Of a stretch of DNA of 64,000 bases, positions 1,715-16,418 are shown piece by piece. This DNA comes from Streptomyces sp. DSM 15324. Its GTDB lineage: Bacteria; Actinomycetota; Actinomycetes; Streptomycetales; Streptomycetaceae. The DNA lies in NCBI RefSeq assembly GCF_001514285.1, contig NZ_KQ949027.1, forward strand, positions 62,001 through 126,000, given 5' to 3'. The notes under the pieces were generated by a model. It saw only the letters and a program-made list of their open reading frames with translations, was not told where the DNA came from and did no database searches. The translations under genes were made by a program, and so were the position numbers. Positions within the stretch are counted from its first letter, which is position 1. The number at the start of each line of letters is the position of its first letter.

Positions 1715-2890
1715 TCAGACCACCCGTACGCCCCTCTTCCACACCCCCGAGACGAGGGGGACCCCGGGCCGGTAGGCCAGGTGGACGTGGCTCGGGGCGT
1801 CCAGGAGGGTCAGGTCGGCGTAGGCGCCGGGGGTGAGGCGGCCGACGTCCGTGCGGCGGAGGGCTGCCGCGCCGCCCGCCGTGGCCGACCAGACCGCCTC
1901 GTCCGGGGTCATGTGCATGTCCCGGACGGCCAGGGCGATGCAGAAGGGGACCGAGGAGGTGAAGGAGGAGCCGGGGTTGCAGTCCGTCGACAGGGCCACC
2001 GTGACGCCCGCGTCCAGGAGCCGGCGGGCGTCCGGCCACGCGGCACGGGTCGAGAACTCGGCGCCGGGCAGGAGCGTGGCGACGGTACGGCTGTTCGCGA
2101 GCGCGTCCACGTCCGCGTCCGTGAGGTGGGTGCAGTGGTCGGCGCTCGCGGCGTCGAGCTCGACGGCGAGCTGGACGCCGGGGCCGTAGGACAGCTGGTT
2201 GGCGTGGATGCGGGGGTGCAGGCCCTTCGCCCTGCCCGCGGTGAGGATCGCGCGGGCCTGGTCGCCGTCGAAGGCGCCCTTCTCGCAGAAGACGTCGATC
2301 CAGCGGGCGTGCGGGGCGCAGGCGTCCAGCATCTCGCCGGTGACCAGCGAGACGTACGCGGCCGGGTCGTCGGCGAGGTCCGGGGAGACGATGTGGGCGC
2401 CGAGGTAGGTCACCTCGTCGGTGTGGCGGGCGGCGATGCGCAGGGCGCGGGCCTCGTCGGCGACGGTCAGGCCGTACCCGGACTTGGTCTCGAAGGTGGT
2501 CGTGCCCTGGTGGAGGGCCTCGGAGAGGTAGCGGGTGAGGTTCGCCTCGAGCTGCTCGTCACTGGCCGCCCGGGTCGCCGCCACCGTCGTCCGGATGCCG
2601 CCCGCGGTGTAGCCGCGGCCGGACATCCGGGCGTTGAACTCCTCGGTGCGGTCGCCCGCGAAGACGAGGTGGGAGTGGGAGTCGACGAAGCCGGGGAGGG
2701 CCGCCCGGCCGTCGGCGTCGACCCGGTTGTCAGTGGCGGGTGCTTTGCTGGAGTCACCGGTCCACACGACGCGGTCGCCCTCGACGACGACGGCCGCGTC
2801 CCGGACCAGACCGAGGGGAGAACCGTCACCGAGGGAGGGGTCGTTGGTGACCAGCGTGGCGATGTTGGTGATGACGGTGCTGCTGCTCAT
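1715..2890 (-). CDS. hutI: Imidazolonepropionase
   Basis: HutI hydrolyses 4-imidazolone-5-propanoate to N-formimidoyl-L-glutamate, the third step of histidine breakdown. The 391-residue product is of normal family length and has the amidohydrolase metal motif [11 protein letters not shown] (His72, His74), [13 protein letters not shown] and the late STDCNPGSS motif. ATG at 2890 is chosen because GAGGA lies about eight bases upstream; an in-frame GTG at 2911 is an alternative. It is the last gene of the minus-strand hut operon, about 50 bases after the stop of the HutF gene, and converges on the ricin-domain gene. Confidence 0.95.
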
Positions 2891-2940: not shown

Positions 2941-4290
2941 TCAGTCGTGCAGTGCTTCCACCGCACGGGCCAGCGCCTGCGGCACGTCCGGTACGAGCGT
3001 GTGGGCCCCGTCGCGTACGACGTGCCGGCCCGCGACGACCGTATGCCGCACGTCCGCCGCGGTCGCCGCGAATACGGCGGTCTCGGCGCCGAGCCGGGGC
3101 AGCGGGCCCGCTGTCCTGACGGAGTCGAGGGCGATCGTCGTGAAGTCGGCGGGGGCGCCGGTCTCCAGGGCGCCCGCCTCCGGGCGGCCCAGGGCCGCGT
3201 GGCCGTCGGCGGAGGCGGCGCGCAGCAGGGCGGCCGCCGTCCAGTGACCGCGGGTGCGGGTGCGCAGGCGTTCGTTCAGCTCCATCGCGCGCGCCTCCTC
3301 CAGGAGGTCGATCACGGCGTGGCTGTCGGAGCCCAGACAGAGCGGTGAGCCCTCGTTCTGGAGGGCGACGGCCGGTCCGATGCCGTCCGCGAGGTCCCGC
3401 TCGGTCGTGGGGCACATGCAGGTGCCGGTGCCGCTGCCGCCGAGCAGGGAGATGTCCTCGGCGGTGAGGTGCGTGTTGTGGACGCCGGTGGTGCGCGGGC
3501 CGAGGACCCCGTGCAGGGCGAGGAGCTGGGTCGGGGTGCAGCCGTGGACCTCGTGGCAGGCCTCGTTCTCGGCGGTCTGCTCGGAGAGGTGGACGTGCAG
3601 CGGCGCGCCGCGCTCCCCGGCCCAGCCGGCCACGGTCGCCAGTTGCTCGGCGGGCACGGCCCGTACCGAGTGGATCGCGGCCCCGATCCGTGCGTGATCC
3701 CGTTCCTTGAGAAGTGAAGAGCGTTCGGCCCAGGCGTCCGCGCTGCCGTCGGAGAAGCGGAGCTGGTGGGCTTTGGGGGGCTGTCCGAAGCCGGAGGACA
3801 GGTAGGCGGTGTCGAGGAGGGTGATGCGGATGCCGGCTTCGGCGGCGGCCTCGATCAGGGCCTCGCCCATCGCGTTGGGGTCGGCGTACGGGGTGCCGCC
3901 GGGGGCGTGGTGCAGATAGTGGAACTCGCCGACGGCCGTGATCCCGGCGAGCGCCATCTCGGCGTACACCGCGCGCGCCAGGGCGTGGTAGGTGTCGGGG
4001 GTCAGCCGGTCGGCGACGGAGTACATGATCTCGCGCCAGGTCCAGAAGGTGCCGGAGCCGACCTGGACGGTGCCGCGCAGGGCGCGGTGGAAGGCGTGCG
4101 AGTGGGCGTTCGCCAGACCGGGGAGGGTGAGGCCGCGCAGGATCTCGGCGCCCGGGGGCGGGGTGTCGACGCCGGTGCGGACGGCGGTGATCCGGCCGTC
4201 CGTGACGTCCAGGGCGACGCCCGGCTCCACCCGCGGGTCGAGCCAGGCGTGCTCCAGCCAGTAGGTCCGTGTCCGCTGCGTGGAGGTCAC
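2941..4290 (-). CDS. hutF: Formimidoylglutamate deiminase
   Basis: HutF deiminates N-formimidoyl-L-glutamate to N-formyl-L-glutamate and ammonia, which places this organism on the formylglutamate branch of histidine degradation. The 449-residue protein has the amidohydrolase signature [11 protein letters not shown] (His63, His65), a HVHLSEQ motif and [15 protein letters not shown], all typical of HutF. Its start codon overlaps the stop of the upstream M20 amidohydrolase gene by four bases (ATGA, 4287-4290), so the two are probably translationally coupled. Confidence 0.95.
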
Positions 4291-5504
4291 CTGCAGGCCA
4301 GTCCTTCCAGTACGTCGGCGAGGGCGTGCACCCCGGCCACGCAGTCGTCCTCGGCGGCGAACTCGGCCGGGGAGTGCGAGACACCCGTGGGGTTGCGCAC
4401 GAACAGCATGGCGGTCGGAATGCGTCCGGAGAGGATCCCGGCGTCGTGTCCGGCGCCGGTGCCGAGGACGGGCACCTTGAGGTCGGTGTCCCGGCCCAGG
4501 ATGCGGGCGAGTTCGTCGCGCAGGGCGTGGTCGAACTCGACGACCGGGGTGAAGGACTCACGTACGACGTCGAGGTCGATGCCGTGCTCCTCGGCGTAGG
4601 CGCGGGCGGCCTTCTCGATGCCGCCGACGACGGTGTCGAGGGTGGCCTGGTCCTCGGCCCGGGAGTCGAGCCAGCCGCGCACCAGGGAGGGGACGGCGTT
4701 GACGCCGTTCGGCTCGACGGAGATCTTGCCGAAGGTGGCGACGGCACCGGCGAGCGCGGCCTCGCGGCGGGCGGCGAGGACCGTCTCGGCGTACGACAGC
4801 ATCGGGTCGCGGCGGTCGGCGAGGCGGGTGGTGCCGGCGTGGTTGGCCTCGCCGCGGAAGTCGAACCGCCAGCGGCCGTGCGGCCAGATGGCGCTGGCGA
4901 TGCCGACCCGGTCGCCGGACAGGTCCAGCGCGCGGCCCTGTTCGACGTGGAGTTCGACGAACGCGCCGATGCGGGCCAGCCGTTCGGGGTCGGGGCCGAT
5001 GGCGTCGGGGTCGTGGCCGGCGGCCTCCATGGCCTGCGGGAGGGTGATCCCGTCGGCGTCGGTGAGGCGGTGCGCCTGCTCGGCGGTGAGCGCTCCGGCG
5101 GTGAGCCGGGAGCCGACGCAGGCCAGACCGAAGCGGGCGCCCTCCTCGTCGCCGAAGTTGACGACGGCCAGCGGCCTGGTGAACTCGGCGCCGCGGGTGC
5201 GCAGTTCGTCGAGCGCGGCGAAGGAGGAGACCACTCCGAGCGGTCCGTCGAAGGCGCCTCCGTCGGGCACGGAGTCGAGGTGCGAGCCGGTGACGACGGC
5301 GTCCCCGGCGGCCGGGTCGCCGAGCCACGCCCACTGGTTGCCGTTGCGGTCCAGCTCGTAGGCCAGACCGCGCGCGGCGGCCTGCTCCTCGAACCAGGTC
5401 CGGCACTCGGCGTCGGCGGCGGTCCAGGCGAACCGGCGGTAGCCGCGGGAGGCGGAGTCACGGCCGACGGGCAGCAACTCCGCCCACATGCTGTGGAACG
5501 TCAC
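4287..5504 (-). CDS. M20 family amidohydrolase (allantoate/N-carbamoyl amino acid type), possible formylglutamate deformylase
   Basis: This 405-residue protein belongs to the M20 metallopeptidase/amidase family that includes allantoate amidohydrolase and N-carbamoyl-amino-acid hydrolase. Likely metal ligands are visible: His75 in [11 protein letters not shown], Asp86 in FDGPLG, Glu120-Glu121 in GDEEGARFG, and a later AGHDAG motif. It lies between hutU and hutF with ATGA overlaps on both sides, so it is made together with the histidine pathway. No HutG-type formylglutamate deformylase gene is present in the cluster. I infer that this enzyme may remove the formyl group from N-formylglutamate, although by sequence alone it would be called allantoate amidohydrolase. 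Confidence 0.85.
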
Positions 5505-7165
5505 GCGTCGTCACCTTCGCGCATCGGCACCCGCACGCCCCGCTCGTCGGCGACGGTCTCCGCGATGTCGTAGCCGGCGTCGACGTGCCGGATGACGCCC
5601 ATGCCGGGGTCGTTGGTCAGGACGCGGCGGATCTTCTCTCCGCCCAGCTTGGTGCCGTCGGCGACGGTGACCTGGCCGGCGTGGATGGAGCGGCCCATGC
5701 CGACGCCGCCGCCGTGGTGGAGCGAGACCCAGGAGGCACCGGAGGCCACGTTGACCATGGCGTTGAGCAGCGGCCAGTCGGCGATCGCGTCGGAGCCGTC
5801 GAGCATGGCCTCGGTCTCCCGGTACGGGGAGGCGACGGAGCCGCAGTCGAGGTGGTCGCGGCCGATGGCCAGCGGGGCGGCCAGCTCGCCGGAGGCCACC
5901 ATGTCGTTGAAGCGCTCGCCGGCCTTGTCGCGCTCGCCGTAGCCGAGCCAGCAGATCCGGGCGGGCAGGCCCTGGAAGTGGACGCGCTCGCCGGCCAGCT
6001 TGATCCAGCGGGCCAGGGACTCGTTCTCCGGGAAGAGGTCGAGGATGGCCTTGTCGGTCTTGGCGATGTCGGCGGGGTCGCCGGACAGGGCGGCCCAGCG
6101 GAAGGGGCCCTTGCCCTCGCAGAACAGGGGGCGGATGTAGGCGGGGACGAAGCCGGGGAAGGCGAAGGCCCGGTCGTAGCCGGCGAGCTGGGCCTCGCCG
6201 CGGATGGAGTTGCCGTAGTCGAAGACCTCGGCGCCGGCGTCCAGGAAGCCGACCATGGCCTCGACGTGGCGGGCCATCGACTCCCGGGCCCGCGTGGTGA
6301 AGCCGGCCGGGTCCTTGGCGGCCGCGTCGGCCATGTCCTCGAAGGCCACCCCGACCGGCAGGTAGGCCAGCGGGTCGTGGGCGGAGGTCTGGTCGGTGAC
6401 GATGTCGATGGGGGCGCCCATCGCGAGGAGCTGGGGGACCAGTTCGGCGGCGTTGCCGAGGACGCCGATGGACAGCGGGCGGCGCGCGTCACGGGCCTCG
6501 ACGGCCAGCTGGAGGGCGTGGTCGAGGGAGTCGGCCTTCACGTCGAGGTAGCGGTGCTCGATGCGGCGCTCGATGGCGCGCGGGTCGCAGTCGATACAGA
6601 GCGCGACACCGTCGTTCATGGTCACGGCGAGGGGCTGGGCACCGCCCATGCCGCCGAGGCCGGCGGTGAGGGTGATGGTCCCGGCGAGGCTGCCGCCGAA
6701 CTTCTTCGCGGCGACGGCGGCGAAGGTCTCGTAGGTGCCCTGGAGGATGCCCTGGGTGCCGATGTAGATCCAGGAACCGGCGGTCATCTGGCCGTACATG
6801 GTCAGGCCGAGGGCCTCCAGGCGGCGGAACTCCTCCCAGTTGGCCCAGTCGCCGACGAGGTTGGAGTTGGCGATGAGGACGCGCGGGGCCCACTCGTGGG
6901 TCTGCATGACGCCGACGGGGCGGCCGGACTGGACGAGCATCGTCTCGTCCTGCTTCAGCCCCTTCAGGGTGCGCACCATGGCGTCGAAGGAGCGCCAGTC
7001 GCGGGCGGCCTTGCCGGTGCCGCCGTAGACGACGAGCTTGTCGGGGTGTTCGGCGACCTCGGGGTCGAGGTTGTTCTGCAGCATCCGCAGAGCGGCTTCC
7101 TGCTGCCATCCCAGGGCGCTCAGTTCCGTACCGCGCTGTGCTCGTACGGGGCGGGGTCCTGACAT
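5501..7165 (-). CDS. hutU: Urocanate hydratase
   Basis: Urocanase adds water to urocanate to give 4-imidazolone-5-propanoate, using tightly bound NAD. The 554-residue product has the family signatures [49 protein letters not shown] and the Gly-rich [11 protein letters not shown] stretch. The ATG start has AAGGAGG about seven bases upstream. It is the first gene of the hut operon and its stop overlaps the start of the M20 gene by four bases. A promoter with an overlapping palindrome lies about 55-85 bases upstream. It looks like a normal urocanase and not a thiourocanate hydratase, but I cannot exclude the latter from motifs alone. Confidence 0.96.
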
Positions 7166-7211: not shown

Positions 7212-7249
7212 TCTATTCACATCCTGGACTCCTGAATAGAACTAGTCAA
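7212..7249 (-). promoter_or_regulatory. hutU promoter with overlapping palindromic operator
   Basis: On the minus strand a -35 box TTGACT (7244-7249) and a -10 box CAGGAT (7221-7226) are separated by 17 bases. A perfect inverted repeat, TCTATTCA (7212-7219) and TGAATAGA (7233-7240) with a 13-base spacer, overlaps both boxes. This is the arrangement expected for a repressor site. The rest of the 378-base gap to 7543 holds the promoter of the next operon and nothing else I can name. Confidence 0.6.
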
Positions 7250-7351
7250 TACACCGGGGCGAAGCCGCGCGCGAAAAGGGGGGAGGGGCGCTGGGGGCAG
7301 GACAGGGGCGCGCGGCACCGAGTTCACCACCCCTGACGGGAGGGCGCGCCG

Positions 7352-7381
7352 TTGACGTAAACCGTGCTCACGGTGTTGATA
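7352..7381 (+). promoter_or_regulatory. Candidate promoter of the Roadblock/DUF4388 operon
   Basis: TTGACG (7352-7357) and TTGATA (7376-7381) are spaced by 18 bases. A small inverted repeat ACCGTG-CT-CACGGT (7361-7374) lies between them. The -10 box is weak, so this is only a candidate. Confidence 0.35.
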
Positions 7382-7543
7382 GGGACGCATGGGGCGTCGC
7401 GCCCCCAATCGGGGCCAGCCGACCCACGTTAGTCAGTCGGTCGCATGTTCCGCTGGAAAATGCCAGATCCCTCACCCGTGGCGCATACGTTGCGTAGCGT
7501 CTCCCTCACTCATCCGAACCGCGGGCGGGAGGGGAGCCGAACG

Positions 7544-7960
7544 GTGCCCGGAATCGACGAGTGCCTACTGGAGGCCATGCGGCTGCCCGGGGCCCGGGGA
7601 GCGGCGTTGGTCGACTGGACCAGCGGGCTGGCGCTGGGCGCCGTCGGGGAGTTCCCGGGCGGCGACCACGAGGCGGCGGCCGCCGAGGCCGCCGAGGTCG
7701 CCCGGCTGACGGCCGAGCAGCGCGCGTTCACCCCCGAGGGGTACGACGCCTCCGGCGACGGTGCCACGCAGGAGGCGGCCGAGCCCCCGGTGGAGGATCT
7801 GATCATCAGCAACCGGGACAGTTACCACCTGCTGCGGTTCGTGCCGACGTCCTTCGACAGCAGTGTCTTCCTGCACGTGTGGCTGAGCCGGTCGGACGGC
7901 AATCTCGCGCTGGCCCGGATCCGGCTGGGCGAGATGGCCGGACGGCTGGTGCTGGGGTGA
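7544..7960 (+). CDS. Roadblock/LC7-like protein (paralogue of the fourth operon gene)
   Basis: The 138-residue protein shares three blocks with the 124-residue product at 9565-9939: GAALVDWTSGLALG near the start, VEDLIISNRDSYHLLRF in the middle, and NLALARIRLGEM near the end. These are the strands and helices expected of the Roadblock/LC7 fold, which regulates small GTPases such as MglA or the CvnD proteins of Streptomyces conservons. An acidic insertion of about 25 residues separates the first two blocks and is absent in the paralogue. The GTG at 7544 has GGAGGGG about nine bases upstream; the frame also extends upstream to 7445. The stop overlaps the next start. Partner and function are unknown. 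Confidence 0.75.
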   Translation: MPGIDECLLEAMRLPGARGAALVDWTSGLALGAVGEFPGGDHEAAAAEAAEVARLTAEQRAFTPEGYDASGDGATQEAAEPPVEDLIISNRDSYHLLRFVPTSFDSSVFLHVWLSRSDGNLALARIRLGEMAGRLVLG

Positions 7961-8976
7961 CGCTCGTGGGGACGACACCGAAGGGCACGACCCCGCCGCC
8001 CCGCCTTCCGGTGCGGGAGAGATCGGCGGCCCGGGAGGCGGGAGGCGGGCTGTCGCCGATGCTGACCCGGCTCGCCGCGGACCGGGCCACCGGCGTCCTG
8101 GAGCGCGAGCGCGGCTCGCTCTACCTCGCCGAGGGCCGCGTGGTGCACGCCGAGAGCCCCTTCGCTCCGGGTCTCGACGTGCTCCTCCTGACCCACGGCA
8201 CCCTCGACGGCGCCTCCTGGCAGCAGGCGCTGGACCGCGCCGGCCCGGAGCAGGGCGCGCTGCGGCTGCTCCTGGACGCCGGCCGGATCCCGCGCGGCGC
8301 GCTGGAGCTGTGCCAGCTGGCGGCGCTGTACGACGCGGCGTACTTCGTGCTCGCGCCCAGCAGCGCCCCGGGCCGCTTCCGCTACGGCGCGGTCCACCCC
8401 CTGGGCGGGCTGCGGTCGGTGCCGGTGGGTTCGCTGCAGCGCGAGACGCTGCGCCGCCGTGAGCTGCTGGACCGGCTGTGGCCGGACCCGGTGGCCGACG
8501 GGGCGCCGCTGGTGCGGGCCGAGGCCTTCGCCGCCCCGGCGCCGACCGCGCGCCAGCGCGCCGTGCTGGCGCTGGTGGACGGGGTGCGCACGGCGTCGGA
8601 CATCGCCCGTGCGTTGGGCCGGCAGGCGTTCCACACCCTGGTGGACGTCCGCCGGCTGGCCGCGGCGGGGCTGCTGACGGGGCTGTTCCCCCCACCGCCA
8701 CCGCCGCCCCCGCCGTACGTCCCGGCAGGAACGGCGGGGGCGGCAGGAACGGCCGGAGCGGCAGGGACGGCGGGAGCGGCGGGGGCACCGGGCTCGTCAC
8801 CGGCCGGCGGCCCCGGCGGCCGGGGGGCGCCGGGAACGGCCGGTGCGCCCGCTGTGCCCGGCGCGCCCGGGGTGCCGCCCACCGTCCAGCCCCCGCACGC
8901 GGCCTCGCTGCCCCGTGTCAACGACCCCGACATCACCTTGCTGAAGAGGCTCAGAGATGCGCTGGAGGCCCTTTGA
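7957..8976 (+). CDS. DUF4388 (PATAN-like) protein with proline/glycine-rich tail
   Basis: The 339-residue product has an N-terminal region (about 33-150) with LAADRATGVLERERGSLYLAEGRVVHAES, split here as LAADRATGVLERERG and SLYLAEGRVVHAES, which fits DUF4388, a domain found in signalling proteins with Roadblock partners. Residues about 190-235 look like a winged helix (RQRAVLALVDGVRTASDIAR). A run of nine prolines and a Gly-Ala-Thr repeat follow, ending in a short helix. It starts with GTG at 7957, overlapping the previous stop as GTGA. The gene order suggests it works with the three Roadblock-like proteins; whether it is an adaptor or DNA-binding protein is not known. Confidence 0.75.
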   Translation: MTLVGTTPKGTTPPPRLPVRERSAAREAGGGLSPMLTRLAADRATGVLERERGSLYLAEGRVVHAESPFAPGLDVLLLTHGTLDGASWQQALDRAGPEQGALRLLLDAGRIPRGALELCQLAALYDAAYFVLAPSSAPGRFRYGAVHPLGGLRSVPVGSLQRETLRRRELLDRLWPDPVADGAPLVRAEAFAAPAPTARQRAVLALVDGVRTASDIARALGRQAFHTLVDVRRLAAAGLLTGLFPPPPPPPPPYVPAGTAGAAGTAGAAGTAGAAGAPGSSPAGGPGGRGAPGTAGAPAVPGAPGVPPTVQPPHAASLPRVNDPDITLLKRLRDALEAL

Positions 8977-9010
8977 GCGGCAGCGACCGCGCGACGGGAG
9001 GAGCGAACTG

Positions 9011-9589
9011 ATGGCCGCCGGGCCGGAGATCCTCGACGAGCTCCGCCGGTTGCGGGCCCGGTTGCCGCAGCTGACCGGTGCGCTGGCGGCCGGCGTGGAC
9101 GGACTCGTCCTCGCCCACGACACCCCCGGCGTGGAGCCGGAGGGGGTGGCCGCGCTGACCGCCGCGGCCCTGGGCGTCGCCGTCCGGCTCACGGACAGCA
9201 CCGGGCAGGGCGATCTGCGCGAGCTGCTCGTGCGCGGTCGGTACGGCTATGTCGCGACGTACGCGGCCGGCGGTCACGCCGTGCTGACGGTGCTCGCGCA
9301 GGACCGTGTCAACGTCGGTCGGCTCCACCTGGAGGGCCGCCGGGCCGGGGCCCGGATCGGTGAGCTGGTCGACGCGTACGAGGCGAGGGCGCGCGAGGCG
9401 CGGATGCGTGAGCCGAAGGCCGCCCCCGCGAAGCCGTCGGCCCAGCCGCCCGTGCGGATGCCGGCCAGACCCCCCGCCGCCCCCCCATGGACCAGATCGG
9501 CGCGCGACACCACCACGGACGCGCGCACCACCACGGAAAGTCGAGAGGAACCGAGGAACACGTCATGGCCAACACCGAAACCGCACTGA
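9011..9589 (+). CDS. Roadblock/LC7 domain protein with disordered tail
   Basis: The 192-residue protein has a Roadblock/LC7 core (about 5-125) with GVDGLVLAHDTPGVEPE and a C-terminal helix rich in Arg and Glu. A Pro/Ala/Lys-rich tail of about 65 residues follows. ATG at 9011 is chosen because GGGAGGAG lies seven bases upstream; an in-frame ATG at 8957 would overlap the previous gene. The 3' end overlaps the next gene by 25 bases. Family members bind and regulate small GTPases; no GTPase is encoded here. Confidence 0.75.
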   Translation: MAAGPEILDELRRLRARLPQLTGALAAGVDGLVLAHDTPGVEPEGVAALTAAALGVAVRLTDSTGQGDLRELLVRGRYGYVATYAAGGHAVLTVLAQDRVNVGRLHLEGRRAGARIGELVDAYEARAREARMREPKAAPAKPSAQPPVRMPARPPAAPPWTRSARDTTTDARTTTESREEPRNTSWPTPKPH

Positions 9590-9939
9590 AAGAGGCGCTC
9601 GCCACCATCGAGGGGGCGTCGGCAGCCGCCCTGGTCGACTACACCAGCGGAATGGCGCTGGGCACGCTGGGCGGCTCCAAGACCTTCGACCTCAACGTGG
9701 CCGCGGCCGGCAACACCGACGTGGTGCGCGCCAAGATGCGCACCATGGAGCACCTCGGGCTGAAGGCCCAGATCGAGGACATCCTGATCACGCTGTCCGA
9801 CCAGTACCACCTGATCCGTCTGATCAGCGGGCGCGGCGGCAACGGGCTCTTCCTGTACCTCGTGCTGGACGCCAAGCGGGCCAACCTCGCGATGGCCCGC
9901 CACCAGCTCAGGAAGATCGAGGAGGACCTGGAGGTCTAG
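9565..9939 (+). CDS. Roadblock/LC7-like protein
   Basis: This 124-residue protein is the shorter paralogue of the product at 7544-7960, sharing ALVDYTSGMALGTLG, IEDILITLSDQYHLIRLI and ANLAMARHQLRKIEEDLE. It begins inside the 3' end of the preceding gene with CGAGG upstream of ATG 9565, so coupling is likely. The stop lies 12 bases from the stop of the convergent membrane-protein gene. The two paralogues and the third Roadblock protein could form mixed dimers; that is inference. Confidence 0.78.
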   Translation: MANTETALKEALATIEGASAAALVDYTSGMALGTLGGSKTFDLNVAAAGNTDVVRAKMRTMEHLGLKAQIEDILITLSDQYHLIRLISGRGGNGLFLYLVLDAKRANLAMARHQLRKIEEDLEV

Positions 9940-9951
9940 GACAGCCCGGAG

Positions 9952-10536
9952 TCAGACGGAGGAGGGAGTGCCGCGGCGGGTGCCGCCCGGGGCCGCGTCG
10001 CCCGCCCCGATGCCGGTGCTGCGGTACGCCTTGACCGCCTTTCCGGCCGGACGGCCTCCGTACCGGCCGAGCCAGTCGACGCGCACCCACAGCAGCGCGT
10101 CCCCGGCCCGCTCGCGCCGCCCGAGCCAGGCCGCCTTCAGCCGCAGCCCGGTGCCGCAGCCGGCGAGGAGCATGCCGGCGGCGGCGGGCACGGCGAAGGA
10201 GCCGGCCAGCGCGACCGCGAAGGCGAGCAGCAGCCACCAGCGGTGGCCGCGCCGCCACGTGCGGACGGTGACCGCCCGGTCCTGGAGCACATCGTGCTTG
10301 CCGGCCCGGGCGGCACCGCCCGCGAGCGCGGTGTACCGCCTACGGCCGTACAGCGCCACCACGGCCGCCCCCACGAGGAACAGCGCGGCCCCCGCCATGA
10401 CCCCGATCCGGCGGCCGGTGATCCCGGGCGGCAGGACGCCGACCCCCGCCGTGAACACCCCGCACCACCACAGCGGTGCGGCCCCGGCCCGTACGACCAC
10501 GGCCACCCGGGCCAGCCCTTGACCTCCGCGCGCCAC
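9952..10536 (-). CDS. Membrane protein of unknown function
   Basis: The 194-residue product has hydrophobic segments near 13-35, 41-60 and 98-125, so two to four transmembrane helices, with a basic, Gly-rich C-terminus. GTG at 10536 has GAGGAGGAG about seven bases upstream. It is convergent with the Roadblock operon and separated from the RpiR-type gene by about 85 bases. I do not recognise the family. Confidence 0.7.
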   Translation of the reverse strand: MARGGQGLARVAVVVRAGAAPLWWCGVFTAGVGVLPPGITGRRIGVMAGAALFLVGAAVVALYGRRRYTALAGGAARAGKHDVLQDRAVTVRTWRRGHRWWLLLAFAVALAGSFAVPAAAGMLLAGCGTGLRLKAAWLGRRERAGDALLWVRVDWLGRYGGRPAGKAVKAYRSTGIGAGDAAPGGTRRGTPSSV

Positions 10537-10621
10537 GTCCGTCTCCTCCTCGCTCCGGCACGTTCTGGTGACCGGTCAGGCTAGTGAGCGAACGTGAGAC
10601 CAGTCTGAGAACCGAGCGGCG

Positions 10622-11491
10622 CTATTCGACGAAGAGCCCGCGGGCCGCCGCCCGGGTGTCGAACTCCTCCAGGCGGGCCTGCGCGTCGGGCAGGTCGTCG
10701 CACATCGCCTCCAGCAGGACCCGGCCCAGCAGCATCGGCGCGCACGCCGTGTCGAAGGCGAGACCGGTGCCGACGGCGGCGGGCAGCAGCAGGTCGGAGA
10801 CCTTGGCGACCGGGGCGAACGCGGAGTCGGCGACCGTGACGACGGTCAGCCCCGCCTCCTTCGCGCAGGTCAGCGCGTCGAGGACCTCGCGCGGATGCCG
10901 GGGCAGGGCGAAGCACAGCAGCGCGCTCGCACCGGCGCGCACGGCCGCGTCGATCCGGTCCTGGATCATCGTGCCGCCCTCGTTGAGCAGCCGTACGTCG
11001 GGGTGGACCTTGGCGGCGAAGTAGGCGAAGCCGTAGGCCTGGGAGGCGGCGGCCCGCAGGCCCAGCACCACAAGGGGCCGGGAGGCGGCCAGCAGCCGAC
11101 CGGCGCGGTGCACCGGGCGCGGGTCGGCGAGGAGTTCGGCCAGATGCCGCAGGTTCTCGATCTCGGCCTCGACGGCCTGCTGGTACTCGTTGTAGGAGGC
11201 GGAGCCGGCGGGCTGGTCGGCGGGCGCGACCTCGCGCAGGTGCCGGCGCAGCGCGGGGTAGCCGTCGAAGCCGAGGGCGACGGCGAACCGGGTCACGGAG
11301 GGCTGGCTGACCCCGGCCAGCTCGGCCAGCTCGACGCTGGACAGGAACGGCACGTCGGCGGCGCGCCGCACCATGCTGTGGGCGATGCGCCGCTGGGTGG
11401 GTGTCAGCCGGTGCCCCTCGAAGAGCCGCTGCAGCCGTCCGGCGGGCGTGTCCGCCACCCCCGTGCCGTCCATGTCGGTCTCCCCGTTCAT
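10622..11491 (-). CDS. RpiR-family transcription regulator (HTH + SIS)
   Basis: The 289-residue protein has an N-terminal RpiR helix-turn-helix (about 15-90, with LSSVELAELAGVSQPSVTRF) and a C-terminal SIS domain (about 130-265) that normally binds a sugar phosphate or other small ligand. ATG at 11491 has GGAGGGGGAG upstream and overlaps the stop of the lyase gene by four bases (11488-11491), so regulator and lyase form one operon. It is the best candidate to control the divergent importer and perhaps hutU, since their promoter regions share a sequence element. The ligand is unknown; RpiR proteins also regulate amino-acid catabolism. Confidence 0.88.
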   Translation of the reverse strand: MNGETDMDGTGVADTPAGRLQRLFEGHRLTPTQRRIAHSMVRRAADVPFLSSVELAELAGVSQPSVTRFAVALGFDGYPALRRHLREVAPADQPAGSASYNEYQQAVEAEIENLRHLAELLADPRPVHRAGRLLAASRPLVVLGLRAAASQAYGFAYFAAKVHPDVRLLNEGGTMIQDRIDAAVRAGASALLCFALPRHPREVLDALTCAKEAGLTVVTVADSAFAPVAKVSDLLLPAAVGTGLAFDTACAPMLLGRVLLEAMCDDLPDAQARLEEFDTRAAARGLFVE

Positions 11492-12996
11492 GCCCCGCTC
11501 CCCCTCCAGATGTCCGTGAACCGGTCCAGCAGCCGGGCCGCGGCGCTCACGTCGTCGGTGAGCGGCCGGTCGGCCTGTTCGGCGTCGAGCGCCGCCTCGG
11601 CGAGCTCCAGCGCCGCCCCGGCCGGGAGTCCCGGCCCGGGCCGCAGCTCGCGCTGGCGCAGCGCCCGTACGGCGGCGACGAGTTCGCAGCCGACCACGAG
11701 ACGGTACGCGGCGCACGCCCTCAGTGTCTGCCGGGCGGCGAGCGAGGCGAAACTGGCCTGTTCCTCGACGCCTCGGGAGAGTACAGCGTGGCCGAGCGAC
11801 GCGGGCGCGGAGAAGGCCCGCAGGTCGCCGAGGGCGGCGCCGGCGGCGTACTCCAGGATCATCACTCCGGAGGAGGCCGGCCGCTCGTCGGCGAGGAAGG
11901 GCCGCAGCCGGGTGTAGGCGGGCTCGTTGAGGGTGGAGAGCCGGGCGGTGGACAGCCGGGCCACCTGCACCAGCGAGAGCCTGAAGTGGTCCAGGGCGAG
12001 GGCGAGCTGGGCCTGGTAGAAGCCCCCGTGGTGGTAGGCGGTCTGGTCCTCGGGGGAGATGAGGGGGTTCTCGGCGGCTGCGTTGATCTCGATGCCGAGC
12101 ACCTCCTCCAGGGCGTCGGCGGCATCGTGCGCGGGGCCGTGGATCTGGGGCAGGCAGCGGAAGCCGTACGGGTCCTGGATGCGCCCGAGGGGAGGGGTGG
12201 GCCGGTCCTCGGCGCCGATCAGCTTCCGCATCCGGCGGGCGACCTCGCGGGAGCCGCGGTGGGGGCGGGCGACGTGCACGGGGGCGGCGTACGCCTCGTG
12301 CGAGCCGTCGACGGCGAGCAGCGAGAGCGCCGCGACGACCTGGGTGGCCTCCAGCAGCCCGCGCAGTTCGTCGAGGGCGAGGGCGGACTGGCCGAGGGTG
12401 AGGGCGTTGCTGCTGATCAGGGCGAGGGCGTCGTTGTTGTCGAGCTGCTGGGGTGCGGGGGCGCCGGCTCCGCGCCAGGGATGTTCCCCGGCCAGCGCCA
12501 GCCCCACCTGGGCCAGGGCCGCCAGGTCACCGGTGCCCACCGAGCCGAACTCGTTGACAACCGGGTGCGCGCCGCCGGTCAGGGCCTCGCACAGGGCGGT
12601 GACCACGCCGGGGCGCAGGCCCGCGCCGCCGGCGAGGAGCTGGTTGGCGCGGACGGCGAGCATCGCGCGGACCTGCCGGGCGGGGAGCTCCTCGCCGATG
12701 GCGCCGGCGTGACTGCGCAGCAGCCGCAGACCGTGCTCGGCGGCCTCCTCGGTGGGCACGTCCTCGTTCCGGTTGGCGCCGACTCCGGTGGAGCGGCCGT
12801 AGACGCGTCCGGTGGCGGCGATCTGCCGGGCGGCATCCCAGACCTCGCTCATCCGGCGCATCGCGTCGGTGCCGGGCACCGGCCGGGCGGTGCCGTCGGC
12901 GAGGCGGACGACGTCCGGGACGCCGAGGGCGACGCCGTCTAGGACGACGAGGCCACTGTGTACGACACCCGGATCATCCACGATCTGAGACGACAT
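11488..12996 (-). CDS. Divergent MIO-family (histidine/phenylalanine ammonia-lyase-like) enzyme lacking the Ala-Ser-Gly triad
   Basis: The 502-residue protein has the full length and fold motifs of histidine ammonia-lyase: VYGRSTGVGANR with the catalytic-type Tyr66, GSVG-TGDLAALAQ, RIQDPYGFRCLPQ and AAENPLISPED. Several active-site positions differ. The MIO triad Ala-Ser-Gly is Gly154-Thr155-Gly156. The usual LINGTQ is LISSNA, so the MIO-contacting Asn is lost. GGNFH becomes HGGFY. The histidine-binding Glu in QEDHVSM is replaced (EEQASFASLA). A normal MIO cofactor is therefore unlikely. It may be a histidine lyase variant or, like ergothionase, may eliminate a better leaving group such as trimethylamine from a histidine betaine (inference). 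ATG at 12996 has GAAGGG ten bases upstream; TTG 13005 lacks spacing. Confidence 0.85.
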   Translation of the reverse strand: MSSQIVDDPGVVHSGLVVLDGVALGVPDVVRLADGTARPVPGTDAMRRMSEVWDAARQIAATGRVYGRSTGVGANRNEDVPTEEAAEHGLRLLRSHAGAIGEELPARQVRAMLAVRANQLLAGGAGLRPGVVTALCEALTGGAHPVVNEFGSVGTGDLAALAQVGLALAGEHPWRGAGAPAPQQLDNNDALALISSNALTLGQSALALDELRGLLEATQVVAALSLLAVDGSHEAYAAPVHVARPHRGSREVARRMRKLIGAEDRPTPPLGRIQDPYGFRCLPQIHGPAHDAADALEEVLGIEINAAAENPLISPEDQTAYHHGGFYQAQLALALDHFRLSLVQVARLSTARLSTLNEPAYTRLRPFLADERPASSGVMILEYAAGAALGDLRAFSAPASLGHAVLSRGVEEQASFASLAARQTLRACAAYRLVVGCELVAAVRALRQRELRPGPGLPAGAALELAEAALDAEQADRPLTDDVSAAARLLDRFTDIWRGSGA

Positions 12997-13073
12997 TGAC
13001 CCCAAACCCTTCTTAATACGGACACTCGATCTTGTTCAGCGGACATCCGTTACATCGGTTTAACGCCAACCCG

Positions 13074-13109
13074 TTGACAAGCTATTCAGCCACCAAGAAC
13101 TCTGCATGA
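13074..13109 (+). promoter_or_regulatory. Importer promoter region with hutU-like element
   Basis: TTGACA (13074-13079) is followed two bases later by CTATTCAG (13082-13089). The hutU promoter has TTGACT, four bases, then CTATTCAG. A partner half-site TGCATGA (13103-13109) matches TGAATAG at only four of seven positions. The -10 box is not clear. On the other strand the same region would serve the lyase/RpiR operon. The shared element suggests one regulator for both loci. Confidence 0.45.
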
Positions 13110-13137
13110 CGTTATACAGCCGGGCAAGGGACATCTC

Positions 13138-14172
13138 ATGATCCAGTTCGATGCGGTCCACAAACGCTTCCCCAACGGCACGACAGCAGTGCACGACCTC
13201 ACCCTGACCATGCCGGAAGGCGGCGTGACCGTACTGGTCGGCTCCTCCGGCTGCGGCAAGACCACCACCCTGCGCATGGTCAACCGCATGGTGGAACCGA
13301 CGTCCGGAACCATCAGGGTCGGCGGCAGGGACGTCACCCGACAGGACGCGGCCGAACTGCGCCGTTCCATCGGGTACGTCATCCAGCAGGCCGGCCTCTT
13401 CCCGCACCGCACGGTGCTCGACAACATCGCCACCGTGCCACTGCTGCTCGGCCACGGCCGCCGCCGAGCCCGCGCCCGCGCCGCCGAACTCCTGGAGACC
13501 GTCGGCCTCTCCGCCGACGCCGGGAAGCGCTACCCGCACCAGCTCTCCGGCGGGCAGCAGCAGCGCGTCGGGGTGGCCCGCGCGCTCGCCGCCGACCCGC
13601 CGGTGCTGCTCATGGACGAGCCCTTCGGCGCGGTCGACCCCGTCGTGCGCACTCAGCTCCAGGACGAACTGCTCCGCCTCCAGAAGGAGTTGAGCAAGAC
13701 CATCGTCTTCGTCACCCACGACATCGACGAGGCCGTCCGCCTCGGCGACCGCATCGCCGTCTTCCGCACCGGCGGACACCTCGTCCAGTGCGCCTCGCCT
13801 GCCGAACTGCTCGCCCGCCCGGCCGACGACTTCGTCGCCGACTTCCTCGGCGCCGAGCGCGGCCTGAAGCTGCTGTCGCTGAAGACCCTCGCGGGCGTCC
13901 CCCAGGGCCCGGCCCCCGAGGGCGGCGCCTGGGCTCTCGTCCTCGACGAGGCCCGCAAGCCGCTCCACTGGGCCTCCCGGGACGCGGAGCTCCCCGTACG
14001 GCCGCTCACCGACGACGACTCCCTGCTGTCGGCGCTCAACGAGTCCGTCGCCTCCCCCACCGGTCTGGTCGCCCGCGTCGACAAGGCCGGCGTCCTCACC
14101 GGCGTCACCTCCCGCGACGAGGTCCACCAGCACGCCGGCCAGGCCCACGCGGAAGCCCGGGTGGCCGCATGA
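13138..14172 (+). CDS. Quaternary-amine/osmoprotectant-type ABC importer, ATP-binding protein
   Basis: The 344-residue ATPase has Walker A GSSGCGKTT (35-43), the signature LSGGQQQR, Walker B VLLMDEPFGAVDP and the His switch VTHD. The segment IGYVIQQAGLFPHRTV is typical of the ProV/OpuCA/OpuBA subfamily that drives uptake of betaines, choline and, in some bacteria, histidine. A C-terminal extension (about 250-335) resembles a degenerate CBS-type regulatory region. Its stop overlaps the first permease start by four bases. It heads a four-gene operon divergent from the lyase. Confidence 0.92.
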   Translation: MIQFDAVHKRFPNGTTAVHDLTLTMPEGGVTVLVGSSGCGKTTTLRMVNRMVEPTSGTIRVGGRDVTRQDAAELRRSIGYVIQQAGLFPHRTVLDNIATVPLLLGHGRRRARARAAELLETVGLSADAGKRYPHQLSGGQQQRVGVARALAADPPVLLMDEPFGAVDPVVRTQLQDELLRLQKELSKTIVFVTHDIDEAVRLGDRIAVFRTGGHLVQCASPAELLARPADDFVADFLGAERGLKLLSLKTLAGVPQGPAPEGGAWALVLDEARKPLHWASRDAELPVRPLTDDDSLLSALNESVASPTGLVARVDKAGVLTGVTSRDEVHQHAGQAHAEARVAA

Positions 14173-14810
14173 GCATCGACTGGTCCTGGATAGCGGGCCA
14201 CACCGACGACCTGACCACGCTCACGCTCTCCCATCTCCAGGCCGCGCTGACCGCCGTCTTCTTCGGCCTGCTGATCTCGCTGCCGCTCGCCGTGGTCGCC
14301 CACCGGATCCGCCCCCTGCGCGGCTTCCTCCTCGGGCTCTCGAACGTCCTGTTCACCATCCCGTCGATCGCGATCTTCGTGCTCCTGCTGCCGGTCAGCG
14401 GTCTCACCCGCACCACGACCGTCATCGGCCTGACCGTCTACACCCTGGTCGTCCTGCTGCGGAACACGGTCGAGGGCCTCGACTCGGTGCCCACGCGGAC
14501 CAAGGAGGCGGCCAGGGCCATGGGCACCCGCCCGCTGCGCACCCTCCTGACCGTCGAGCTCCCGCTCGCGCTCCCCGTGATCATGGCGGGCGTCAGGATC
14601 GCGACCGTCATGTCGATCTCCCTGGTGTCGGTCGCCACCTACATCGGCGACGGCGGCCTCGGCCAGCTCTTCACCGACGGCTTCCAGCGCGACTTCCCGA
14701 CCCCGGTGATCGCGGGCGTGGTCCTCACGATCCTCCTCGCCGTCGTCGCGGACGCGGCCCTGGTCGCCCTCCAGTACGTCCTGACCCCGTGGCAGAGGCG
14801 GCGAGCCTGA
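14169..14810 (+). CDS. Quaternary-amine-type ABC importer, permease 1
   Basis: The 213-residue integral membrane protein has about five hydrophobic segments and the EAA-loop sequence EAARAMGTRPLRTLLTVELP that contacts the ATPase. This matches ProW/OpuCB permeases. It begins inside the ATPase stop codon (ATGA) and ends one base before the second permease, so the subunits are made in equal amounts. Confidence 0.92.
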   Translation: MSIDWSWIAGHTDDLTTLTLSHLQAALTAVFFGLLISLPLAVVAHRIRPLRGFLLGLSNVLFTIPSIAIFVLLLPVSGLTRTTTVIGLTVYTLVVLLRNTVEGLDSVPTRTKEAARAMGTRPLRTLLTVELPLALPVIMAGVRIATVMSISLVSVATYIGDGGLGQLFTDGFQRDFPTPVIAGVVLTILLAVVADAALVALQYVLTPWQRRRA

Positions 14811-14811
14811 C

Positions 14812-15489
14812 ATGTACGAACTCTTCACGAACCTCGGCTCGTGGCTGACCAGCGGCACCCAGTGGTCCGGCTCCGACGGCATCGCCCACCGGCTCGCCGA
14901 ACACCTCCAGTACTCGCTGCTCGCCACCCTCATCGCCGCCGCGATCGGCCTGCCCCTCGGACTCCTCATCGGCCACACCGGCAAGGGCGCCTTCCTCGCC
15001 ATCAACCTGGCATCGTTCGGGCGCGCCCTGCCGACCGTCGGCCTGGTGGTGCTGGTCTTCCTGGCCGGCGGGCTGTCGATGCTGCCGGTGTACGTCGCGC
15101 TGGTCGCCCTCGCGGTCCCCTCGATCGTCACCAACACCTACGCGGGCATGGCGGCCGTCGACCCGGAGGTGAAGGACGCCGCACGCGGACAGGGCATGCG
15201 CGGCCACCAGGTCCTCCTCCAGGTGGAGCTGCCCCTCGCGCTCCCCCTGATCATGACCGGCGTGCGGCTCGCGCTCATCCAGGTCGTCGCCACGGCGACC
15301 ATCGCCGCGTACGTCTCCTTCGGCGGCCTCGGCCGCTATGTCTTCGACGGCCTCGCCCAGCGCGACCTCGTGCAGGTGATGGGCGGCGCCGTACTGGTCG
15401 CCGTGGTCGCCGTCACGCTCGACCTGCTGCTCTCCGGCCTCCAGCGCCTCCTCTTCAGCCACCGCACCGCCCAGGGACACCGCCCATGA
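14812..15489 (+). CDS. Quaternary-amine-type ABC importer, permease 2
   Basis: The 225-residue second permease has five to six transmembrane segments and a conserved EAA-type loop (DAARGQGMRGHQVLLQVELP). It is homologous to permease 1, so the transporter is a heterodimeric OpuC-like system, with the binding protein as a separate lipoprotein. Its stop overlaps the start of the binding-protein gene. Confidence 0.92.
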   Translation: MYELFTNLGSWLTSGTQWSGSDGIAHRLAEHLQYSLLATLIAAAIGLPLGLLIGHTGKGAFLAINLASFGRALPTVGLVVLVFLAGGLSMLPVYVALVALAVPSIVTNTYAGMAAVDPEVKDAARGQGMRGHQVLLQVELPLALPLIMTGVRLALIQVVATATIAAYVSFGGLGRYVFDGLAQRDLVQVMGGAVLVAVVAVTLDLLLSGLQRLLFSHRTAQGHRP

Positions 15490-16418
15490 ACCGTCGTACC
15501 CTCCTCGGTGGCCTGCTCGCCGCCGGCTCCGTGCCCGCCCTCGCCGCCTGCTCCAGCGGCATCACCTCCCTGAACGAGCAGAACGGCTCGACCGCCGGCG
15601 GTGGTTCGAGCAAGGGCGGGATCACCATCGGCACCGCCAACTTCACCGAGAACCAGGTGCTCGGCTACCTGTACGCGGCCGTGCTGGAGCAGGCCGGCGT
15701 CAAGGTGAAGGTCCGCCCCAACCTCGGCACCCGGGAGATCGTGATCCCCGCGCTCAGGGCGGGCGACATCGATCTGCTGCCCGAGTACCAGGGCGCCCTG
15801 CTCAACTACCTCGCGCCCAAGGACGACTCCGCCGAGCCCGGCACCATGCAGAACGCGCTCACGCTGGCGCTGCCCGCCGGCCTCCAGGTGCTGCCGTACG
15901 GGCAGGCGGCCGACTCCGACTGCTTCGTCGTCACCCGGGCCACCGCCCGGAAGTACGGTCTGACCTCGCTGGCCGACCTGGCCAAGCAGAACGGCAGGCT
16001 GGTCATCGGCGCCGCGCCCGAGGTGAAGAAGCGGCGGGTGGGCGTGGTCGGCCTGAAGGAGGTGTACGGCGTCGAGTTCAAGGAGTTCAAGTCGCTGGAC
16101 TCCGACGGACCGCTCGTCAAGGGCGCGCTGAAGAAGGGCGACGTGGACGTGGCGAACCTGTTCACCACCGACACCGACATCGAGGCCGACGACTGGGTGG
16201 TGCTGACCGACCCGAAGAACCTCGTCCCGAGCCAGCACATCGTCCCGCTCATCGCCGACCGCAAGGCCGACGACACGGTCCGCAAGGCCCTCGCCCGGAT
16301 CGGCAACGTGCTCACCACCGAGCAGCTCACCCAGCTCAACAGCCAGGTCGACAACGACAAGAAGGACCCCGAGGACGTGGCGAACGCGTACGCGAAGCAG
16401 CACGGGCTGGCGAAGTAG
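15486..16418 (+). CDS. Quaternary-amine-type ABC importer, substrate-binding lipoprotein
   Basis: The 310-residue product starts with a signal peptide with paired arginines (NRRTLLGGLLAAG) and a lipobox LAAC with Cys22, so it is anchored outside the membrane. GTANFTENQVLGYLYAAVLE and PNLGTREIVIPAL place it in the OpuAC/OpuBC/OpuCC ligand-binding family, whose aromatic cage holds quaternary ammonium groups; the S. pneumoniae EgtU domain for ergothioneine is a relative. The usual EYTGT hinge motif reads PEYQGALL here, so the ligand may not be glycine betaine or choline. Context next to a histidine-lyase relative points to histidine, hercynine or ergothioneine (inference). Last gene of the operon. 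Confidence 0.9.
   Translation: MNRRTLLGGLLAAGSVPALAACSSGITSLNEQNGSTAGGGSSKGGITIGTANFTENQVLGYLYAAVLEQAGVKVKVRPNLGTREIVIPALRAGDIDLLPEYQGALLNYLAPKDDSAEPGTMQNALTLALPAGLQVLPYGQAADSDCFVVTRATARKYGLTSLADLAKQNGRLVIGAAPEVKKRRVGVVGLKEVYGVEFKEFKSLDSDGPLVKGALKKGDVDVANLFTTDTDIEADDWVVLTDPKNLVPSQHIVPLIADRKADDTVRKALARIGNVLTTEQLTQLNSQVDNDKKDPEDVANAYAKQHGLAK

Follow-up and report, generated by a model that had tools for sequence, protein, structure and literature searches.

In Streptomyces and some related bacteria, the genes for histidine degradation (hut) appear to be under the control of a regulator of the RpiR family that reads a short repeated half-site. The analysis concerns a 64-kb stretch of contig NZ_KQ949027.1 from Streptomyces sp. 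DSM 15324 (the window; whole genome 9.4 Mb), which carries an operon headed by hutU and a second locus, where a HAL-like gene (HAL2) and rpiR diverge from the genes of an importer. We consider it probable that the hutU operon, hutH, rpiR and the importer form a single RpiR regulon under a local histidine-utilisation regulator, which would repress these genes until released by a metabolite. The element common to the hutU and importer loci is the half-site CTGnATA.

A half-site common to the hutU and importer loci

The features of the hutU promoter are given below; the promoter hexamers assigned here and at the other promoters are putative.

7212-7240, unstranded: hutU operator, TCTATTCA-N13-TGAATAGA, half-sites A and B diverging, 13 bp apart, around the -10 hexamer
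7221-7226, minus strand: hutU -10 hexamer CAGGAT, with a 17-nt spacer to TTGACT; conserved as CAGGATG
7244-7249, minus strand: hutU -35 hexamer TTGACT, kept in hutU promoters
5501-7165, minus strand: hutU, urocanate hydratase (TIGR01228, 898 bits against a cut-off of 375), first gene of the operon

On the minus strand TTGACT is followed by 4 nt (AGTT) and then by CTATTCAG (7232-7239) inside a perfect palindrome upstream of hutU, and on the plus strand, at the importer, TTGACA (13074-13079) is followed by 2 nt (AG) and CTATTCAG (13082-13089); both arrangements are exactly as a preliminary description of the window had given them. That description had also counted TTGAC(A/T) as part of the common element. 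This part did not hold, since the hexamer is the -35 of each promoter, its distance to CTATTCAG differs between the two sites, and it follows the presence of the importer (25 of 25 regions against 0 of 5). The hutU palindrome is clearly not a product of chance, no such palindrome having appeared in 100 shuffles of the window. CTATTCAG has only its hutU and importer copies in the 64 kb, where 0.17 are expected, and two or more copies were present in 2 of 100 shuffles; its sharing within the window is thus an event of about 2%, so that the link to the importer needed evidence from outside the window. The 64 kb contain four copies of the heptamer CTGNATA, one at hutU, two in the importer intergenic region and one elsewhere, and all half-sites are close to CTGnATA. 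The idea that the importer carries a second hutU palindrome was rejected, as the model of the hutU/hutH element (model R1, see below) misses the importer site. An ARG-box, the site of ArgR, was also considered for the TGAAT/TGCAT half-sites and set aside on the spacing that we take ARG-boxes to have.

Conservation at hutU and hutH

The preliminary description had named absence of the element from orthologous promoters as the observation that would speak against it. When this was checked, TATTCA-N13-TGAATA proved to be conserved in Streptomyces hutU promoters: of 30 that were read, 27 align without gaps on TTGACT-AG-n-C-TATTCA followed by CAGGATG-TGAATA, with flanks that are not conserved. The other three (L018, L031 and L036) keep the first half-site and lack its inverted partner TGAATA, and L031 and L036 have a second CTATTCAG further downstream in direct orientation. 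The exact sequence CTATTCA-N13-TGAATAG was found in a public genome collection at no fewer than 34 loci (at least 34) with hutU starting just downstream. In more distant Streptomyces (L298, L299, L301 and L302, from genomes G105, G050, G184 and G047, respectively), the inverted second half-site upstream of hutU is absent. Like L031 and L036, these promoters have CATTCAG as a direct repeat at a more downstream position.

The window does not contain the canonical hutH, which is found elsewhere in the genome (G000:C3:393956-395464; 709 bits). In Streptomyces hutH promoters a -10 of the TACGCT/TAGGGT type is enclosed by TTCA-N13-TGAATA, with N14 spacing in some of them, and the right part of the element overlaps the start codon. 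In 20 genomes, ATTCA-N13/14-TGAAT occurs 50 times, compared with 4 times in a reversed control, and comparison of positions placed 19 of the 50 sites at hutU and 10 at hutH. Model R1, accepted up to an E-value of 10, matched solely hutU and hutH in five of six whole genomes, a result that measures specificity rather than discovery since the model was built from these very promoters; the sixth genome, whose sites have N14 spacing, gave no match. These data support the predicted membership of the true hutH in the RpiR regulon of Streptomyces.

The divergent HAL2-rpiR/importer region

The second locus comprises the following features.

10622-11491, minus strand: rpiR, HTH_6 (RpiR-type) regulator (PF01418); its ATG overlaps the stop codon of the upstream HAL2 (ATGA)
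11488-12996, minus strand: HAL2, HAL-family lyase paralogue without the methylidene-imidazolone (MIO) tripeptide (PF00221), first gene of the HAL2-rpiR operon
13074-13079, plus strand: importer -35 hexamer TTGACA, in 25 of 25 regions with an importer start and 0 of 5 without
13082-13089, plus strand: CTATTCAG half-site (A), common with hutU, in 30 of 30 orthologous regions
13099-13104, minus strand: candidate -10 hexamer CAGAGT of the HAL2-rpiR operon, from sequence; conserved
13102-13119, unstranded: RpiR-type palindrome CTGCAT-N6-ATACAG (half-sites B and C), in 30 of 30 orthologous regions
13122-13127, minus strand: candidate -35 hexamer TTGCCC of the HAL2-rpiR operon, from sequence, 17 nt from the -10; conserved

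The divergent region spans 141 bp (12997-13137) and was compared across 30 genomes that have HAL2. CTGCAT-N6-ATNCAG is present in all 30, and so is a CTATTCAG-type half-site, which in L189 reads GTATTCAG. Since TTGACA is found only where the importer start is present, it is the importer -35, and a different function falls to the other element, which we regard as primarily the own promoter element of the minus-strand HAL2-rpiR operon. Where Streptomyces have no HAL2 at the locus, the same composite precedes rpiR itself (e.g. CTGCATATGCTCATGCAG-N13-TGAATAG), even in genomes that lack both the HAL-like gene and the importer. The exact palindrome CTGNAT-N6-ATNCAG has a single occurrence in the 9.4-Mb genome, at the HAL2/importer region. 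With one mismatch allowed, the 90 genomic matches are near background (81 in the control), including the one that falls at the hutH start.

Three further observations were made in this region. Relatives such as L192 and L195 have a conserved ATCCG-N6-CGGAT-like block ahead of the importer -35; it is weaker here (about 13046-13062) and is possibly a second regulatory site. L211 (G151) has two tandem copies of the composite half-site element, with CATTCAG replacing TATACAG, and so represents a natural operator variant. Finally, the importer start of L199 (G182) looks decayed, its -35 having changed from TTGACA to TCGACA, and the rpiR-side element is intact.

Distribution, linkage and domains of the RpiR protein

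RpiR orthologues were found in 194 of 199 Streptomyces and HAL2 in 88 of 199. In all 37 sampled genomes with RpiR and hutU on one contig the two are 1-20 kb apart (median 4.5 kb), and RpiR stays near hutU where HAL2 is absent or, as in G056, far away. A role of RpiR as partner of the HAL-like gene and the importer alone was therefore dropped, the protein being near-universal and tied to hutU. Linkage of RpiR to hutU extends beyond the genus to eight genomes from three other families, in most of which the genes are direct neighbours. There, rpiR promoters in two of the families carry the same class of palindrome (e.g. TTGAATGAAAGTATGCAG), and hutU promoters in the RpiR-linked genomes carry CTGAATCTATTCATTCA or TGAATGCATTCATTCA. 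Regulator and site are also absent together: G281 and G331, of a single non-Streptomyces genus, have both and their congener G214 has neither, and Streptomyces G121 has neither RpiR nor the hutU site. G030 has no hutU, and its sole RpiR match is weak (2.8e-59), similar to that of the second RpiR paralogue present in other genomes. Near-universality, linkage to hutU, half-sites in its own promoter and matched joint absence all point to RpiR as the probable common regulator that the preliminary description had proposed.

The N-terminal part of the protein matches HTH_6 (PF01418) with 42.4 bits against a gathering score of 28.3, and all of 18 diverse orthologues have the helix-turn-helix segment AGVSQPSVTRFA unchanged, as would be expected with a conserved operator. 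The C-terminal part has no match to the Pfam SIS domain; a profile alignment nevertheless covers the SIS domains of 4ivn and 3sho. The phosphosugar loop of SIS domains (S-x-S-G-x-T) is absent from RpiR, and LPR(H/Y)PxE stands at its place (SSSGST in 4ivn), which makes a sugar phosphate an improbable effector; RpiR proteins do not all have this loop, as 3sho is also without it.

Proposed mechanism and alternative explanations

We infer that RpiR binds DNA at these sites and would recognise the half-site CTGnATA. It would block RNA polymerase both where half-sites diverge around the -10 (TATTCA-N13/14-TGAATA, at the hutU operon and hutH) and where converging half-sites (CTGnAT-N6-ATnCAG) are joined by a nearby third one, at HAL2-rpiR and the divergent importer promoter. 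A metabolite of the pathway, probably one of the imidazole compounds (urocanate or histidine, for example), would bind the SIS-like domain and release RpiR, and release would induce hutU-hutF-hutI, hutH, rpiR and the importer jointly. The positions of the half-sites, which flank the -10 at hutU and hutH and form a palindrome between -35 and -10 at HAL2-rpiR, favour steric repression, and repression rather than activation is the most likely mode. Some RpiR proteins are activators, and the direction of control is not readable from sequence; that RpiR binds these sites and mainly activates hut transcription is nonetheless quite improbable in our judgement, as a protein bound around or between the -35 and -10 of hutU, hutH and HAL2-rpiR would exclude the polymerase.

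An alternative that retains RpiR only at CTGCAT-N6-ATGCAG, in its own HAL2-rpiR/importer promoter, assigns TATTCA-N13-TGAATA at hutU and hutH to an unlinked protein and treats the likeness of the half-sites as coincidental. The unlike arrangement of half-sites in the two classes and the failure of the hutU/hutH model to find the importer site would be expected if two regulators were at work. Against them, the rpiR promoter itself holds a hutU-type half-site, TGAATAG, at N14 spacing, hutU promoters next to RpiR outside the genus carry the converging form TGAAT-N6-ATTCA, and no other candidate regulator turned up with hutU, though no systematic search was made; we consider this explanation unlikely. 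It is very improbable that there is no common regulator at all, with core-promoter or start-site constraints accounting for the conservation and a chance match for the importer CTATTCAG. The overlap of the hutH element with the start codon and the 2% frequency of two CTATTCAG copies in the window are as such a view would have them, but the half-sites stay where TTGACA was lost with the importer, CTGNAT-N6-ATNCAG is unique in the genome, and site and RpiR are jointly absent in another family.

Several points weigh against a single RpiR regulon. G059 has RpiR and a divergent hutU without a recognisable site; conversely, the hutU site is present in G102 and G008, where no RpiR was found, an absence that is uncertain because these assemblies are highly fragmented (1420 and 740 contigs, respectively). 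At canonical hutH promoters outside Streptomyces no such site was seen, so that membership of hutH looks confined to Streptomyces. The half-sites diverge at hutU and converge at rpiR, and it is plausible that one protein reads both. Finally, the sampled promoters are related, and therefore their counts are not independent.

The HAL-like lyase, the importer and the remaining hut genes

The genes of the importer, a transporter of quaternary-amine type, and those downstream of hutU are as follows.

13138-14172, plus strand: importer ATPase, ProV/OpuC type (TIGR01186, 304 bits, under the cut-off of 327)
14169-14810, plus strand: importer permease 1, ProW/ChoW-like
14812-15489, plus strand: importer permease 2, ProW/ChoW-like
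15486-16418, plus strand: importer substrate-binding protein, ProX/EgtUC/OsmF-like (PF04069; PDB matches ProX and EgtUC)
4287-5504, minus strand: M20-type amidohydrolase, annotated as allantoate amidohydrolase (NF006770, 667 bits), within the hutU operon
2941-4290, minus strand: hutF, formimidoylglutamate deiminase (NF006681 and TIGR02022, above cut-off)
1715-2890, minus strand: hutI, imidazolonepropionase, 391 aa, last gene of the operon, named from its sequence and operon place

The HAL-like gene of the window is not hutH: it scores 282 bits with the curated hutH model (cut-off 539), its loop reads GSVGTGD in 30 of 30 orthologues where canonical hutH has GSLGCSGDL (30 of 30), so that the MIO tripeptide A/C-S-G is missing, and the true hutH lies elsewhere. 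The loop is one residue short and equals in length the SSIGEGD loop of the ergothionase of Treponema denticola (6s7j), for which absence of the MIO group has been described (PMC13405746). Being without the MIO triad like ergothionase, HAL2 may act on histidine betaine; in a profile search with HAL2, two ordinary HALs outscored ergothionase. The importer binding protein resembles that of EgtU in matching EgtUC as well as ProX, yet it has Phe and Tyr at the alignment positions of G244 and F293, the ergothioneine determinants of EgtU (PMC9732360). The single hutU-type hydratase of the genome is a urocanate hydratase, below the cut-off for thiourocanate hydratase.

The MIO-less lyase (11488-12996, minus strand) is transcribed divergently from the ProX-type importer (13138-16418, plus strand), and together they are a possible module for histidine-betaine uptake and trimethylamine-lyase activity. 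Ergothionase, for comparison, has a HAL fold and releases trimethylamine from ergothioneine. Hercynine, or trimethylhistidine, is common in fungi. A hercynine route into urocanate fits, yet is speculative. As a tentative and rather doubtful extension, the regulon might join histidine breakdown to a betaine branch, in which hercynine would be imported and split by HAL2 into urocanate and trimethylamine, urocanate would pass to HutU, and a sugar-type regulator with a pocket re-tuned to an imidazole compound would control both routes.

In the hutU-hutF-hutI operon, the M20-type amidohydrolase (4287-5504, minus strand) occupies the place expected for N-formylglutamate deformylase (HutG), and it may fill this role.

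Relation to known systems

In Pseudomonas, HutC is a local hut regulator that responds to a metabolite of the pathway (PMC12772324, PMC12977541); it belongs to the GntR family, whereas the equally local regulator proposed here is of the RpiR/SIS type. Corynebacterium HutR, which lies within the hut cluster, was predicted from gene context only (PMC3350403). Like RpiR here it is actinobacterial and sits by hut genes, but it is a member of the IclR family. With the sugar regulators of the MurR/RpiR family (RpiR, MurR and HexR; structure 4ivn) the protein shares HTH_6 and, putatively, a SIS-like effector domain and a local, often autoregulatory mode of action, and it differs from them in its LPR(H/Y)PxE in place of the SSSGST loop and in its histidine-gene targets. 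The searched open-access papers, which leave most subscription journals uncovered, yielded no report of an RpiR-family hut regulator, and no study of a named Streptomyces hut regulator was found in the searchable open-access papers. Local hut regulators as such are already known; what we rate as new is one from another protein family.

The missing hut regulator of Streptomyces has a concrete and testable candidate in the RpiR protein, complete with an operator sequence and a predicted regulon. RpiR regulators, here with an altered effector pocket, would then act in amino-acid catabolism as well as in sugar metabolism. Control of the hut genes would also be tied to an importer and to a MIO-less lyase, which may open a way to break down histidine betaine.

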